NCBI RefSeq assembly: GCF_024170465.1
Contig: NZ_JALJYF010000001.1
Coordinates: 1,302,001-1,366,000 of the forward strand
Direction of reading: 5' to 3'
Origin: Natronospira proteinivora
Lineage (GTDB): Bacteria; Pseudomonadota; Gammaproteobacteria; Natronospirales; Natronospiraceae
DNA: 64,000 nucleotides
Below the pieces are notes generated by a model that saw nothing but the letters and a program-made list of their open reading frames with translations, ran no database searches and had not been told where the DNA came from. Numbering within the stretch: position 1 is the first letter of the stretch; each line of letters opens with the position of its first letter. The translations under genes and the position numbers were made by a program. Shown piece after piece: positions 50,326 through 56,782 of the stretch.

Positions 50326-51015
50326 ATGAACAAGAAACCCGACTCCAAGAATGTGGATGAACACCCGGTGTTCTCCGCCCTGCCCCAGGCCCAGCGTGAA
50401 CGCATCCTGTCCCGTTCGGAGGTGATCTCCATTGGCCGGGGCGAAACCCTGTTCCATGAAGGGGATCCGGCGCGGCGCATCTATCGTTGCGAGAGCGGCC
50501 AGCTCAAGCTTTACCGCCTGGCACCCAACGGTAATGAAAAGATCATCGCCCTGATCCAGCCCGGGAGTACTTTCGCGGAAGCCACCATGTTCATGGAGGA
50601 ACGCAACTACCCGGTCAACTGCGAAGCGCTCAAAGCCAGTCGCCTGGTGAGCTACGATGCTGATGACTGTGTGGAAATGCTGCGGCAGGATACCGACAGC
50701 TGCTTTCAGCTGATGGCCATGTTCAGCCGCCGCCTGCGCCAACGGCTGTCCGATATCGAGGCCCTTTCCCTGCAGAATGCCACCCTGCGGGTCGCCAACT
50801 ACCTGCTCCAGCTCCGCCAGCAGCAGGACGGGGCCGACACCCTGGACCTGCCCACCTCCAAGAAACACATAGCCGGGTTGCTGGCCCTGCAGCCGGAAAC
50901 CCTGTCACGGGTATTTGCCCAGCTACAGGAGTCGGGAGTCATTCAAGTGGAGGCCCGGCGGGTCACCATCCTGGACCCCGACCGCTTCCAGAATATCGCC
51001 TACGGCCTGGACTAG
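50326..51015 (+). CDS. dnr: Dnr-type Crp/Fnr regulator (NO-responsive)
   Basis: 229 residues: a cNMP-like sensor domain (LFHEGDPARRIYRCESGQLKLYR) and a Crp-type helix-turn-helix (TSKKHIAGLLALQPETLSRVFAQLQ). It lacks the N-terminal cysteine set of oxygen-sensing Fnr, the pattern of Dnr/NnrR proteins that bind haem and respond to NO. It lies directly upstream of nirK, whose Fnr box it may use. Naming rests on context plus the missing cysteines. Confidence 0.85.
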   Translation: MNKKPDSKNVDEHPVFSALPQAQRERILSRSEVISIGRGETLFHEGDPARRIYRCESGQLKLYRLAPNGNEKIIALIQPGSTFAEATMFMEERNYPVNCEALKASRLVSYDADDCVEMLRQDTDSCFQLMAMFSRRLRQRLSDIEALSLQNATLRVANYLLQLRQQQDGADTLDLPTSKKHIAGLLALQPETLSRVFAQLQESGVIQVEARRVTILDPDRFQNIAYGLD

Positions 51016-51178: not shown

Positions 51179-52327
51179 ATGCAAGCCCGACAGCTATTGC
51201 TCACCGCTGCCAGCATGACGCTGGCATTAAGCCTCGCACCGTTGACCCTCACTGCTGACGAACGCCTCAAACATGACGGCGAATTCATGGTGGACGGAAT
51301 GATCTTTGGTATGCCGGAAGCACGGGTGTTCGAGGAAGACTACGATGGCCCGCCGGTGGTAGGCGAAACCATGACTGCCCTCCCCCACCTGGCACCCTTG
51401 ACCCATGAAGGCAACAAAACCCATGAGGTCCGGCTGGACACCTTCGCCCAGAAAATCGAAGTGGCGAATGGCAAGACATTCAATGCCTGGACGTTCGGCG
51501 GCACGGTCCCTGGGCCGACCCTCCATGTGCGCGAAGGAGATCGTGTGGTCTTCACCATGAAGAACCGCTCCGACGAAATGGTCAGCGTCACCGAGCCGGT
51601 GCCGGGGGGAAGCCCCTTTTTCAGCCAGCTTAATGAGAACAACTATCTCAAGACGGAGCCGGCGGTGAGCCCCATGCCACACTCCATGGATTTCCACAGC
51701 GGAACCGTGGCCGCCGATGACAAATGGCGCACCATCCCGCCCGGCCAAAGTATCGAATTCGAGTGGGTGGCCAACTATCCCGGCGTCTTCATGTACCACT
51801 GCGGCACGCCCAGTGTCTTGATGCACACCGCCATGGGCCAGTACGGGGCCGTGGTGGTTTCCCCCAAGGAAGGCTATGACACCGATGATCAGGTGGACCG
51901 GGAGTACGTGATTGTTCAGTCGGAGTACTACCTGCGCAAACACGGTGATGAATACCGCTATGACCATACGGCGGCCATGAACCGCAATCCCAGCCAGGTG
52001 GTATTCAACGGCCATGTGAACGCCCTGAATAGTGAGCCCCTGCGGGCCAATGCCGGCGAGCGGGTTCGGCTCTATCTCATGAACGCCGGTCCCAATGACA
52101 CCTCCAGCTTCCATGTCATTGGCGCCATCTTCGACCGGGTCTGGTACGAGGGCAACCGCGAAAACGAATGGCGCGGCATGCAAACCGTCCTGCTGGGTGC
52201 AAGCAACAGTGCCGTGGTGGAATTCATCGTGCCCGAGGAAGGCAGTTACAAGCTGGTGGACCACGAGTTTGCCGACGCTGAACGCGGCGCTGCGGGCACT
52301 CTCATTGCCGGCCCACGCCGCCAGTAA
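51179..52327 (+). CDS. nirK: Copper-containing nitrite reductase NirK (unusual type 1 copper site)
   Basis: 382 residues from ATG 51179, which follows AGAGGAG; signal peptide at residues 1-25. Copper ligands follow NirK: type 1 H168, C208 and H216; type 2 H173, H207 and H362; catalytic D171 and H312. At the type 1 axial position, five residues after H216, Gln221 replaces the usual Met, while a Met is at 219. About 25 extra residues (VSVTEPVPGGSPFFSQLNEN and following) lie before the MPHSMDFH motif. The second cupredoxin (FHVIGAIFDRVWYEG) is AniA-like. It reduces nitrite to NO in the periplasm. First gene of nirK-nirV-SCO. Confidence 0.93.
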   Translation: MQARQLLLTAASMTLALSLAPLTLTADERLKHDGEFMVDGMIFGMPEARVFEEDYDGPPVVGETMTALPHLAPLTHEGNKTHEVRLDTFAQKIEVANGKTFNAWTFGGTVPGPTLHVREGDRVVFTMKNRSDEMVSVTEPVPGGSPFFSQLNENNYLKTEPAVSPMPHSMDFHSGTVAADDKWRTIPPGQSIEFEWVANYPGVFMYHCGTPSVLMHTAMGQYGAVVVSPKEGYDTDDQVDREYVIVQSEYYLRKHGDEYRYDHTAAMNRNPSQVVFNGHVNALNSEPLRANAGERVRLYLMNAGPNDTSSFHVIGAIFDRVWYEGNRENEWRGMQTVLLGASNSAVVEFIVPEEGSYKLVDHEFADAERGAAGTLIAGPRRQ

Positions 52328-52349: not shown

Positions 52350-53138
52350 ATGCGCACCACCCGACTGGCAAGCCTCAGCACCGCCCTGATTGTTTGCATA
52401 AGTAGCCAGGCGGGTATCTCGAGTGATCGAGCGGTGCGCATTGACGGCGGCACCTTCATCCAGCCGGTATTGCTGGATGAGAACCAACGGACGCTGGAAA
52501 TGGAAAGCTTCTACCTCGACCGTGCCCAGGTCAGCAACAGTGATTTCCTGGACTTCATTCAGCAATACCCAAACTGGCGGCGGGACCAGGCTCCAGGATT
52601 ATTCCGGGATGCGGACTACCTGAAACACTGGCCCGAACCCGATGCCCTGGGAGACGGGGTAGCGGGTGCTGACCGTCCCCTGACCCGGGTGTCCTGGTAC
52701 GCGGCAAGGGCCTATTGCCAGGCCCAGGGAGGACGACTCCCCAGCATGGATGAATGGGAATACGCCTCCGCCAGACAGCGAACCCTGACGGGGCAAAGTG
52801 ATGATGACTACGCCGATGCCCTGTTCGCCTGGTACAGCAATCCGGGCGCCGAGACCCTGGCTGCGGTCGGCCAGGGAGAGGCCGGACCTCTGGGCGTCCA
52901 TGATCTCCACGGGCTGGTGCTGGAATGGGTGGAGGATTTTGAACTGCTGCTCACCATGGGTGACCAGACCGACCTGCTGAATGGGTCCTGCGGCGACACC
53001 GCCCGAATGATGCCGGAGTTTGATGCCGCCCATTACGCCACTTTTCTGCGCTATCAGTCACGCAGCAACTACAGCCCCCGCACCACCACCACAACCCTGG
53101 GCTTTCGTTGTGCCTACGACCCGGAGGATATGAAATGA
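52350..53138 (+). CDS. nirV: NirV-like formylglycine-generating-enzyme-fold protein
   Basis: 262 residues from ATG 52350 after AAAGGAG; signal peptide at the start. It has the FGE/SUMF1 fold: IDGGTFIQPV, SFYLDRAQVSNSDFLDFIQQY, SWYAARAYCQAQGGRLPSMDEWEYA and a closing RTTTTTLGFRCAYD. NirV of other denitrifiers lies downstream of nirK in the same way. Its role is unclear, perhaps in NirK assembly. Its stop overlaps the SCO start by four bases. Confidence 0.87.
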   Translation: MRTTRLASLSTALIVCISSQAGISSDRAVRIDGGTFIQPVLLDENQRTLEMESFYLDRAQVSNSDFLDFIQQYPNWRRDQAPGLFRDADYLKHWPEPDALGDGVAGADRPLTRVSWYAARAYCQAQGGRLPSMDEWEYASARQRTLTGQSDDDYADALFAWYSNPGAETLAAVGQGEAGPLGVHDLHGLVLEWVEDFELLLTMGDQTDLLNGSCGDTARMMPEFDAAHYATFLRYQSRSNYSPRTTTTTLGFRCAYDPEDMK

Positions 53139-53764
53139 ATACTTACAAAGCAGTGCTGCTCTCGATTCTCCTTGCTCTACTGCTGATGAGTAGCGGCAAG
53201 GTATTCAGCGAGTGTGACCATGAACATCACCAAGAGCATACACCCCTGGAAGCTACCGAGCTGACCCATGACGACTCTCTGTTCCACCTGTCGGCAGAAT
53301 GGACCAACCACCGGGGTGAGACACTGACGCTGGCTGATTTCAGCGGCCACCCCATGATCATCACCATGATATACGGTAACTGCGAGACCGCCTGCCCCAT
53401 TCTGGTCCACGATGCCCACCGCACCGAGCGTGCCCTGCCCGAGCATCTGCAAGCGCAGGTCAAGGTGCTGGTGGTGAGCTTCGATGAGCAGCGCGACACC
53501 CCCGACGCACTGGCCAGCTACGCCGACCAGCGAGACCTGGACCAGGATCACTGGCATTTCCTGCATGGCGAGGCCGCGGATATCCGTACCCTGGCCAGCC
53601 TGCTGGGCATCCGCTACCGGGCCAACCAGGATGGCAGCTTCGATCACAGCAATGTGGTCGCCGTGCTGGATGGTAACGGACAGATTGCCCACCGTACCGA
53701 GGGTTTGGTTCGCCCGGTGGACGCCGCAGTGGCCGCCCTTAGACAGCAGACCCAAAAACCCTGA
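53135..53764 (+). CDS. SCO1/SenC family copper chaperone
   Basis: 209 residues from ATG 53135 (overlap ATGA with nirV, GGAGG upstream). Signal peptide, then thioredoxin fold with copper-binding Cys83-ETA-Cys87 (GNCETACPIL) and the conserved His in DHSNVVAV. SCO proteins deliver copper to cupredoxin sites, in cytochrome oxidase and likely here in NirK. Its tail (residues 24-36) is His-rich (CDHEHHQEH), suited to metal capture. Confidence 0.93.
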   Translation: MNTYKAVLLSILLALLLMSSGKVFSECDHEHHQEHTPLEATELTHDDSLFHLSAEWTNHRGETLTLADFSGHPMIITMIYGNCETACPILVHDAHRTERALPEHLQAQVKVLVVSFDEQRDTPDALASYADQRDLDQDHWHFLHGEAADIRTLASLLGIRYRANQDGSFDHSNVVAVLDGNGQIAHRTEGLVRPVDAAVAALRQQTQKP

Positions 53765-53932: not shown

Positions 53933-56230
53933 ATGAGCTCCATCAAGAAGCTCTGGTGGTTCCTCGGCATCCTCTTTGTCGCGTCTTTCGGGACGCTGCT
54001 CCTGATCGGGGGTGAAATCTATCGAGAAGCCCCGCCCATGCCGGATCAAGTGGTGGCCGAAGATGGCCGCGTGGTATTTGATCGGGATCATATCCAGCAG
54101 GGTCGCCAGGTCTGGCAGACCATGGGGGGCCAGCAGCTAGGCTCCATTTGGGGCCACGGTGCCTATTTGGCACCGGACTGGACCGCCGACTGGCTGCACC
54201 GGGAAATCACTGTGCTGTTGGACACATGGGCGGAGCGGGATCACCGCCAGGACTTCAGCGCGCTCTCCTCGGAGCAGCAGGCAGCCTTGAAGGCCCGTCT
54301 CAAGGACACCCTTAGAACCAATACCTGGGACGAAGCGAGCGGGACCATCACGGTCTCCAATGACCGGGCCGATGCCATCGCCCACGTCTCACAGCATTAT
54401 GTGGATCTGTTCGGTGATGCCGAAGCCCTCTCGGAACTGCGGGAGAAGCAGGCCATTCCGGAAAACCCAGTGCCGGACCTGGAGCGCCGGGAACTGGTTC
54501 CGGGATTTTTCTTCTGGACGGCCTGGGCCGCTGCGGCTGAACGCCCCGGCAAGGACATTACCTATACCAACAACTGGCCCCATGAACCCCGCATCGACAA
54601 TCGGCCCAGTACCGCCAATGCCATGTGGTCGATTGCCAGTGTGATTCTGCTGCTGGCTGCCATCGGGGCCATGGTCTGGTACTACGCCGCCTCCCGCAAG
54701 GAAGAAGAGCTGCCCACGCCGCCTGAAAAGGACCCCTTGCGCAAGATGCAGAAGACGCCTTCCATGAAGGCCACCCACAAGTTCTTCTATACGGTCATTG
54801 CTCTGTTCATGGCTCAGATCGGCCTGGGTATTCTCACCGCTCACTATGCCGTGGAAGGCCAGGGTTTGTTCGGCTTCCCGCTGGCTGATTATCTCCCCTA
54901 TGCGGTGACCCGGACCTGGCACACCCAGATTGCCATCTTCTGGATTGCCACCGCCTGGCTGGCCACGGGACTCTATATTGCACCGGCCATTTCCGGTCAT
55001 GAACCCCGCTTCCAGAAGCTGGGTGTCAATGTGCTCTACTTCGCCTTGCTCTTCGTGGTGGTGGGTTCATTGATGGGCGAATGGTTCGGTGTCCAACAAA
55101 AGCTGGGCCTGGACGCCAACTTCTGGTTCGGTCACCAGGGCTGGGAATACGTGGACCTGGGCCGCTTCTGGCAGATCCTGCTGTTTATTGGACTGGTGTT
55201 CTGGCTGGTGCTGGTGGCCCGTGCCCTGTGGCCGGCCCTGAAGGAAAAAAGCCAACGCCAGCCGCTGGTGATGCTGCTGTTCCTGTCCACGGTGGCCATC
55301 GGCCTGCTGTATGGTGCCGCCTTCTTCTGGGGCAAGCACACCCACCTGTCCATGATCACCTACTGGCGCTGGTGGATCGTCCATCTGTGGGTGGAAGGCT
55401 TCTTCGAGGTCTTTGCCACCGCCGTGATCGCCCTGATCTTCACCAAGCTGGGACTGATCCGAGCCAAGCTGGCGGCGGCCGCTGTCCTGCTGGCCACGGT
55501 GGTTTTCCTCTTCGGGGGCATTCTCGGGACCCTGCACCACCTCTACTTCTCGGGAACCCCCACGGCGGTTTTGGCCATCGGGGCCATGTTCTCGGCACTG
55601 GAAGTGGTGCCGCTGGTGCTCATCGGCTACGAGGCCTATGAGAACTATCACATGAGCAAACGGACCGACTGGATGGAACGTTACAAGTGGCCGGTCTATT
55701 GCTTCGTGGCGGTCGCGTTCTGGAACATGGTGGGCGCTGGTCTGCTGGGCTTTCTCATCAATCCGCCCCTGTCGCTCTACTTCCTGCAGGCACTTAACAC
55801 CACCGCCGCCCACGCTCACGGTGCCCTGTTCGGTGTCTACGGCATGCTCGGGATCGGTCTGATGCTGTTCTGCCTGCAAAGCGCCAATCAGCGGCTGCGC
55901 TGGAACAACCGCATCATGGCGCCGGCTTTCTGGACGCTCAATATCGGCCTGGCCATGATGGTGTTCATGTCGCTACTGCCGGCCGGTGTCTATCAGGCCT
56001 ACCACAGCATTACCACTGGCTTCTGGTATGCCCGCTCCGAGGAAATCGTGCGCGGGCCCATCATGGAAGCCCTGGTCTGGCTGCGGGTGCCCGGTGATAT
56101 CGTTTTCGCCATCGGTGCCTTCCTGCTGGCCTGGGCGGTCTACCAGGCCTGGAAGACCAGCCGTGGCCCGGAACCGGTAGGCGTTCCCCTCGAAACCAGT
56201 GAAACCGCGGAGGCTGATACACGCTTTTGA
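53933..56230 (+). CDS. norZ: Quinol-dependent nitric oxide reductase (qNor)
   Basis: 765 residues; ATG 53933 follows TAGGAG. The N-terminal 240 residues form the qNor extension, equal to NorC without haem c (GGQQLGSIWGHGAYLAPDW). The rest is the NorB-like 12-helix body: haem ligands in HTQIAIFWIATAWLATGLY and later AHAHGALFGVYGMLGI, and the FeB-site region HLWVEGFFEVFATAVIALIF with the conserved Glu. It reduces NO to N2O with quinol in the membrane and removes the NO made by NirK. It is controlled by the Fnr box and NsrR half-site upstream and ends at a strong two-way terminator. Confidence 0.96.
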   Translation: MSSIKKLWWFLGILFVASFGTLLLIGGEIYREAPPMPDQVVAEDGRVVFDRDHIQQGRQVWQTMGGQQLGSIWGHGAYLAPDWTADWLHREITVLLDTWAERDHRQDFSALSSEQQAALKARLKDTLRTNTWDEASGTITVSNDRADAIAHVSQHYVDLFGDAEALSELREKQAIPENPVPDLERRELVPGFFFWTAWAAAAERPGKDITYTNNWPHEPRIDNRPSTANAMWSIASVILLLAAIGAMVWYYAASRKEEELPTPPEKDPLRKMQKTPSMKATHKFFYTVIALFMAQIGLGILTAHYAVEGQGLFGFPLADYLPYAVTRTWHTQIAIFWIATAWLATGLYIAPAISGHEPRFQKLGVNVLYFALLFVVVGSLMGEWFGVQQKLGLDANFWFGHQGWEYVDLGRFWQILLFIGLVFWLVLVARALWPALKEKSQRQPLVMLLFLSTVAIGLLYGAAFFWGKHTHLSMITYWRWWIVHLWVEGFFEVFATAVIALIFTKLGLIRAKLAAAAVLLATVVFLFGGILGTLHHLYFSGTPTAVLAIGAMFSALEVVPLVLIGYEAYENYHMSKRTDWMERYKWPVYCFVAVAFWNMVGAGLLGFLINPPLSLYFLQALNTTAAHAHGALFGVYGMLGIGLMLFCLQSANQRLRWNNRIMAPAFWTLNIGLAMMVFMSLLPAGVYQAYHSITTGFWYARSEEIVRGPIMEALVWLRVPGDIVFAIGAFLLAWAVYQAWKTSRGPEPVGVPLETSETAEADTRF

Positions 56231-56347: not shown

Positions 56348-56782
56348 TCAACTGAGATCCAAGAGGCGGGCCACCTGGGCTCGATTGCCCATGAGATCCG
56401 CCAGGGTGTAGCCGTCCAGGACATTGAGAAAGGCCTGTAGGGCCTCGTTAAGCACGCCGGCCAGGCGGCAGCCTGGTGCAATACGACACCGCCCGGTCCC
56501 ACCGGGAAAGCACTCGGCAATAGCGAAGTCTTCCTCGGTGGCCCTGGCCACGGCCCCGAGATTGATTTCCGATTCCGGGCAAGCCAGTCGAATACCCCCG
56601 CCCTTGCCCCGCAGGGAATGAAGAAAACCCGCCCGGGTCAGCCCCTGAACCACCTTCATCAAATGATTTCGGGAAATATCGTAGCGTTCGGCGATCTCGC
56701 CGATGGTGGCCAGGCGGTTATCCTGGGCGGCCAGATAGATCAGTACCCGGTAAGCGTAATCCGTATGGCGCGTGAGATGCAT
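56348..56782 (-). CDS. nsrR: NsrR, NO-sensing Rrf2 repressor
   Basis: 144 residues of Rrf2 fold: N-terminal winged helix (LTRHTDYAYRVLIYLAAQ, then TIGEIAERYDISRNHLMKVV) and three cysteines Cys91, Cys99 and Cys105 in CFPGGTGRCRIAPGC that hold the iron-sulfur cluster. The spacing is close to E. coli NsrR. NO destroys the cluster and releases DNA. Its target sites are seen before nirK and norZ. It is downstream of fnr on the same strand, 65 bp away. Confidence 0.93.
   Translation of the reverse strand: MHLTRHTDYAYRVLIYLAAQDNRLATIGEIAERYDISRNHLMKVVQGLTRAGFLHSLRGKGGGIRLACPESEINLGAVARATEEDFAIAECFPGGTGRCRIAPGCRLAGVLNEALQAFLNVLDGYTLADLMGNRAQVARLLDLS

Follow-up and report, generated by a model that had tools for sequence, protein, structure and literature searches.

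The DNA analysed here is a stretch of 64,000 nucleotides from Natronospira proteinivora, referred to below as the window. The nirK gene, coding for a copper nitrite reductase, is located at positions 51,179–52,327 of its forward strand as an intact open reading frame starting from ATG, and the 382-residue product has a signal peptide and two cupredoxin domains. Upstream on the same strand lies a gene for a Crp/Fnr-family regulator (50,326–51,015). Downstream of nirK, also on the forward strand, are a nirV-like gene with an FGE-sulfatase domain (52,350–53,138), a gene for a SCO1/SenC-like copper chaperone (53,135–53,764), both conserved in the operon of the Gln-type nirK, and norB (53,933–56,230), which codes for a single-chain, quinol-type nitric oxide reductase with a cytochrome c-like domain. 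An Rrf2-family regulator, NsrR-like with a score below the NsrR cut-off, is encoded on the reverse strand (56,348–56,782). The genome holds one NirK and gave no match to the cytochrome cd1 enzyme NirS, which was rejected as the true nitrite reductase of the genome because it was not found; the window nirK is thus the only dissimilatory nitrite reductase found there. The window protein therefore probably carries nitrite respiration, and NorB, the NsrR-like and Fnr-type regulators and the lack of NirS agree with a predicted role in converting nitrite to NO.

Codon check and alignment placed the type 1 (T1) copper ligands at His168 (CAC, 51,680–51,682), Cys208 (TGC, 51,800–51,802) and His216 (CAC, 51,824–51,826), the type 2 (T2) ligands at His173 (CAC, 51,695–51,697), His207 (CAC, 51,797–51,799) and His362 (CAC, 52,262–52,264), the last given to the neighbouring subunit, and the catalytic pair at Asp171 (AspCAT; GAT, 51,689–51,691) and His312 (HisCAT; CAT, 52,112–52,114), all on the forward strand. 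These T1 and T2 ligands and the catalytic Asp/His pair showed no variation in an alignment of 54 sequences; the first-pass annotation had described them as kept. The sensing loop reads HSMDFH and includes Asp171. Only 20 residues separate His362 from the end of the reading frame, and there is no C-terminal third cupredoxin domain. The T1 axial position is occupied by Gln221 (CAG, 51,839–51,841), five residues after His216, and Met219 (ATG, 51,833–51,835) stands at His216+3. The stretch from YHC to GQYG aligned without gaps to the NirK of Geobacillus (3wkq), whose axial Met falls opposite Gln221, which together with the codon read directly confirmed the axial placement of Gln proposed earlier. 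The T1 set His2-Cys-Met used as a criterion for NirK is therefore not found here, as Gln221 takes the place of Met.

The AlphaFold model of the window protein shows a confident NirK fold (mean pLDDT 90.9). NirK structures occupied the top rows of the fold search with Z scores of 33–36, the best among those listed being AniA (Z 35.9), with Geobacillus NirK at an rmsd of 1.5 Å; 6HBE, a NirK structure discussed below, was absent from the 50 matches listed, which speaks neither for nor against a likeness. The best family match was TIGR02376 (NCBIfam), at 201.7 bits against a cut-off of 296.3, and this match was divergent and split at an insert described below. The catalytic features and the fold weigh more than this threshold, which was set on other clades. 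As the window protein scores below the curated cut-off, automatic annotation may miss the clade to which it belongs.

The relatives of this NirK were gathered from a genome scan (80 sequences), and more came from searching the surrounding classes and phyla. Gln221 is present in all 57 distinct members of the window clade, so that Gln is indeed a clade trait, a point that the first-pass annotation had left to be checked. Its codon is always CAG or CAA, and each change from ATG therefore takes two substitutions. Because of these two base changes and the 57/57 conservation, Gln221 is neither a sequencing slip nor a lone mutation. Members of the clade come from five phyla, covering Gammaproteobacteria, Balneolia, Trueperaceae, Gemmatimonadota and Acidobacteria; the hosts include Alkalilimnicola, Wenzhouxiangella, Idiomarina, Pseudidiomarina, Marinimicrobium and Rheinheimera, as well as Gracilimonas, Fodinibius, Trueperaceae, Gemmatimonadota and one acidobacterial MAG. 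Most clade members examined keep the gene order nirK-nirV-sco. In the literature searched we found no report on the axial ligand of the NirK of this clade, a 2025 phylogeny of aquatic nirK makes no mention of Gln or of axial ligands, and the branch is apparently uncharacterised.

Several further loci were observed during these searches. Fodinibius roseus carries two tandem nirK operons (-3467 to +3054 from nirK at L028), the gene for a Met-type NirK of about 480 residues being followed by that for a Gln-type enzyme, with nirV and sco after each. One Met-type sister nirK, L173 (G599), has an in-frame TAA shortly upstream of the T1 His motif, which reflects either a broken gene or an assembly error. 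Two gammaproteobacterial NirK-like proteins, L100 and L182, have an axial Gly (HVVTGG) or Leu (HISHGL).

The second feature of the clade, which goes beyond the first-pass annotation together with the breadth of the clade itself, is an insert next to the T1 site. In the window protein it covers residues 131–165 (SDEMVSVTEPVPGGSPFFSQLNENNYLKTEPAVSP; 51,569–51,673, forward strand), between the end of a strand at Asn129 and the T1 ligand His168, and the alignment places it directly before Met166-Pro167-His168. All 57 clade members carry it, with a length of 34–36 residues, or 60–63 in a few Balneolia, where ordinary NirKs have 2–4 residues and the nearest Met-type sisters have 10–14 or no insert. 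An automatic tally found Gln in 58/58 sequences with the insert, and, among about 99 Asp-type sequences without a long insert, Gln in 2 and Met in about 97. Pro140, Phe/Tyr147, Gln150 (56/57) and Pro165 are conserved within the insert across the 57 members, and in the AlphaFold model it is predicted to be ordered and to form a helix from 146 to 153. Met166 and Pro167 are the equivalents of RpNiR Met92 and Pro93, which touch the donor haem and precede the T1 ligand His94 (PMC13324648); as the insert ends at these residues, its place in the sequence suggests that it borders the electron-entry face.

Candidate donors are encoded next to nirK in several relatives. In Idiomarinaceae and Marinimicrobium, a gene for a small cytochrome c stands just upstream of the Gln-type nirK, and in eight of the loci collected the gene directly upstream codes for a free cytochrome c some 131 residues long. 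This protein has homologues in the donor domains tethered within three-domain NirKs, those of PhNiR (E 1.5e-20) and RpNiR. In Balneolia, a cupredoxin gene lies downstream of the Gln-type nirK. The Natronospira proteinivora genome holds relatives of the small cytochrome c, and a single azurin is the only protein of the blue-copper family found in it.

A tree of 90 sequences, built with the insert and the axial column left out, calls for three changes between Met and Gln, namely in the window clade, in the Thermus type and in L125/L126. These last two sequences form a Deinococcota group nested in the AniA-like NirKs; they have an axial Gln, keep AspCAT and have no insert, and represent a third Gln lineage. 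Starred branches part the window clade from the Thermus type. In the AU test, one common origin of every Gln NirK was strongly rejected (p 8e-32), as was a joint origin of the window clade with L125/L126, and a grouping of the window clade and the Thermus type was not rejected (p 0.146). From the changes in the tree and these tests, the axial Gln would have arisen at least twice and probably three times.

Gln ligation in NirK chemistry is already known from a solved precedent, TsNirK of Thermus scotoductus SA-01 (PDB 6HBE, 1.63 Å, 2019; PMC6400189), which the Thermus-type loci among the relatives match. Its T1 copper is bound by His75, Cys115, His125 and, apically, Gln130 Oε1, and the enzyme is intensely blue, with a kcat of 65 per s and a KM of 27 µM (PMC6400189). 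The replacement of the axial Met by Gln is thus tolerated in the NirK family. The counter-case raised in the first-pass annotation, that Gln might be widespread in well-studied NirKs with normal sites, is borne out in part, by this one enzyme with its blue T1 site and good activity. Gln130 stands at His125+5 just as Gln221 stands at His216+5, but TsNirK has three domains with a fused C-terminal cupredoxin where the window protein has two, SerCAT instead of AspCAT (Asp171), a longer, class I-length Cys-His loop, and no insert before the T1 His, in place of about 35 residues. Because of the tethered cupredoxin domain and SerCAT, its properties carry over only imperfectly. The closest solved structure by sequence, Geobacillus NirK (3wkq, 3wia; 45% identity over 273 residues), shares the two domains, the Cys-X7-His spacing, the T2 ligands and the Asp/His pair, but has an axial Met and lacks the insert of about 35 residues. 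AniA of Neisseria (5ue6), RpNiR and PhNiR share the class II core of the window protein and likewise have an axial Met and no insert; the donor cytochrome c is tethered in RpNiR and PhNiR, whereas the donor of the Gln-type NirKs is separate. The same His2-Cys-Gln ligand set is found in stellacyanin, azurin M121Q and rusticyanin M148Q, although these are single-domain electron carriers and not nitrite reductases. The novelty, as far as the literature searched shows, lies in the broad two-domain AspCAT clade, its coupled insert and the repeated switch from Met to Gln.

The effect of such a ligand on the T1 potential has been measured in other proteins, which bears out the earlier remark that Gln lowers it: the potential changes by -64 to -91 mV in azurin M121Q (PMC5698706) and falls by 104 mV, from 667 to 563 mV, in rusticyanin M148Q (PMC11881046), and the Met-to-Leu change in AxNiR has the opposite effect, a shift of +96 mV, with effects on activity that vary by donor (PMC13324648). 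We consider the window protein to be, with a probability of about 0.8, a working periplasmic copper nitrite reductase with a His2-Cys-Gln T1 site (His168, Cys208, His216 and Gln221), a lowered potential and a reshaped docking surface. Gln221 Oε1 would bind the T1 copper apically and would drop its potential by about 60–110 mV compared with Met ligation, so that T1 would drive electrons more strongly towards the T2 copper. A partner would dock on the surface remodelled by the insert and hand over its electrons; this donor may be the small cytochrome c from the gene just upstream in Idiomarinaceae and Marinimicrobium, the cupredoxin from the downstream gene in Balneolia, and one of the related cytochromes c or the azurin in Natronospira proteinivora. 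Effects of the second coordination shell might compensate for this fall.

The reading in which a shifted loop brings Met219 to the copper and leaves Gln221 a purely structural role, which the first-pass annotation had named as what would speak against an axial Gln, is very unlikely. Met219 lies two residues ahead of Gln221 and is present in 55 of the 57 clade members, but the other two, Wenzhouxiangella L003 and L005, have Gln in its place (HTAQGQ) and thus no Met in the stretch from the T1 His216 to Gln221, which is itself kept in 57/57. A Met-type sister, L043, has Met219 together with the canonical Met221 (HMVMGM), and in TsNirK the +3 residue, where the window protein has Met219, is Gly and the bound residue is the Gln at +5. 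The loop also has the Cys-X7-His-X4 length of Met-type class II NirKs, and in the AlphaFold model Met219 immediately follows a predicted helix, 213–218.

Near-neutral drift of an axial Gln, with the second shell restoring the potential and electrons entering as in Met-type NirKs, is in keeping with TsNirK being still blue and active with Gln and with azurin being the sole blue-copper-family protein found in the genome, as is the case with ordinary two-domain NirKs. We regard it as improbable, since selection is suggested by the strict conservation of Gln across five phyla, by at least two independent gains at two base changes apiece and by its unbroken association with the insert, and since the azurin and rusticyanin variants found in the literature have a lower potential with Gln. 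Even less credible is a T1 copper that no longer serves electron entry, with the insert covering it and electrons taking another route, or with the enzyme catalysing another reaction. The insert is placed by sequence on the donor-facing side and is predicted to be ordered, but the Cys-His bridge and the sensing loop are intact, the operon in the window holds a nitric oxide reductase, the genome has no other dissimilatory nitrite reductase that could be found, and relatives encode a donor-type cytochrome c beside nirK.

The His2-Cys-Gln nitrite reductase remains our preferred reading. A broader proposal, which we put forward tentatively and hold to be rather doubtful as a whole, is that it belongs to a widespread, undescribed two-domain class, common in saline and soda-lake bacteria, with a low-potential His2-Cys-Gln T1 site and a new docking loop, resulting from one of two or three such switches. 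The NO2-/NO potential falls at alkaline pH, two protons being taken up per electron. If the proposal is true, the switch would fit the enzyme to donors of lower potential or to this falling potential, the link to alkaline and saline habitats being a hypothesis drawn from the names of the hosts. NirK is the enzyme that governs the production of NO during denitrification, with electron entry determined by its T1 copper. The clade with a fixed Gln in five phyla and its Met-type sisters, with a shorter insert or none, form a natural experiment on the tuning of the potential and on donor docking, and the present case suggests that motif rules demanding Met, or the TIGR02376 threshold, could overlook a whole group of denitrifiers.
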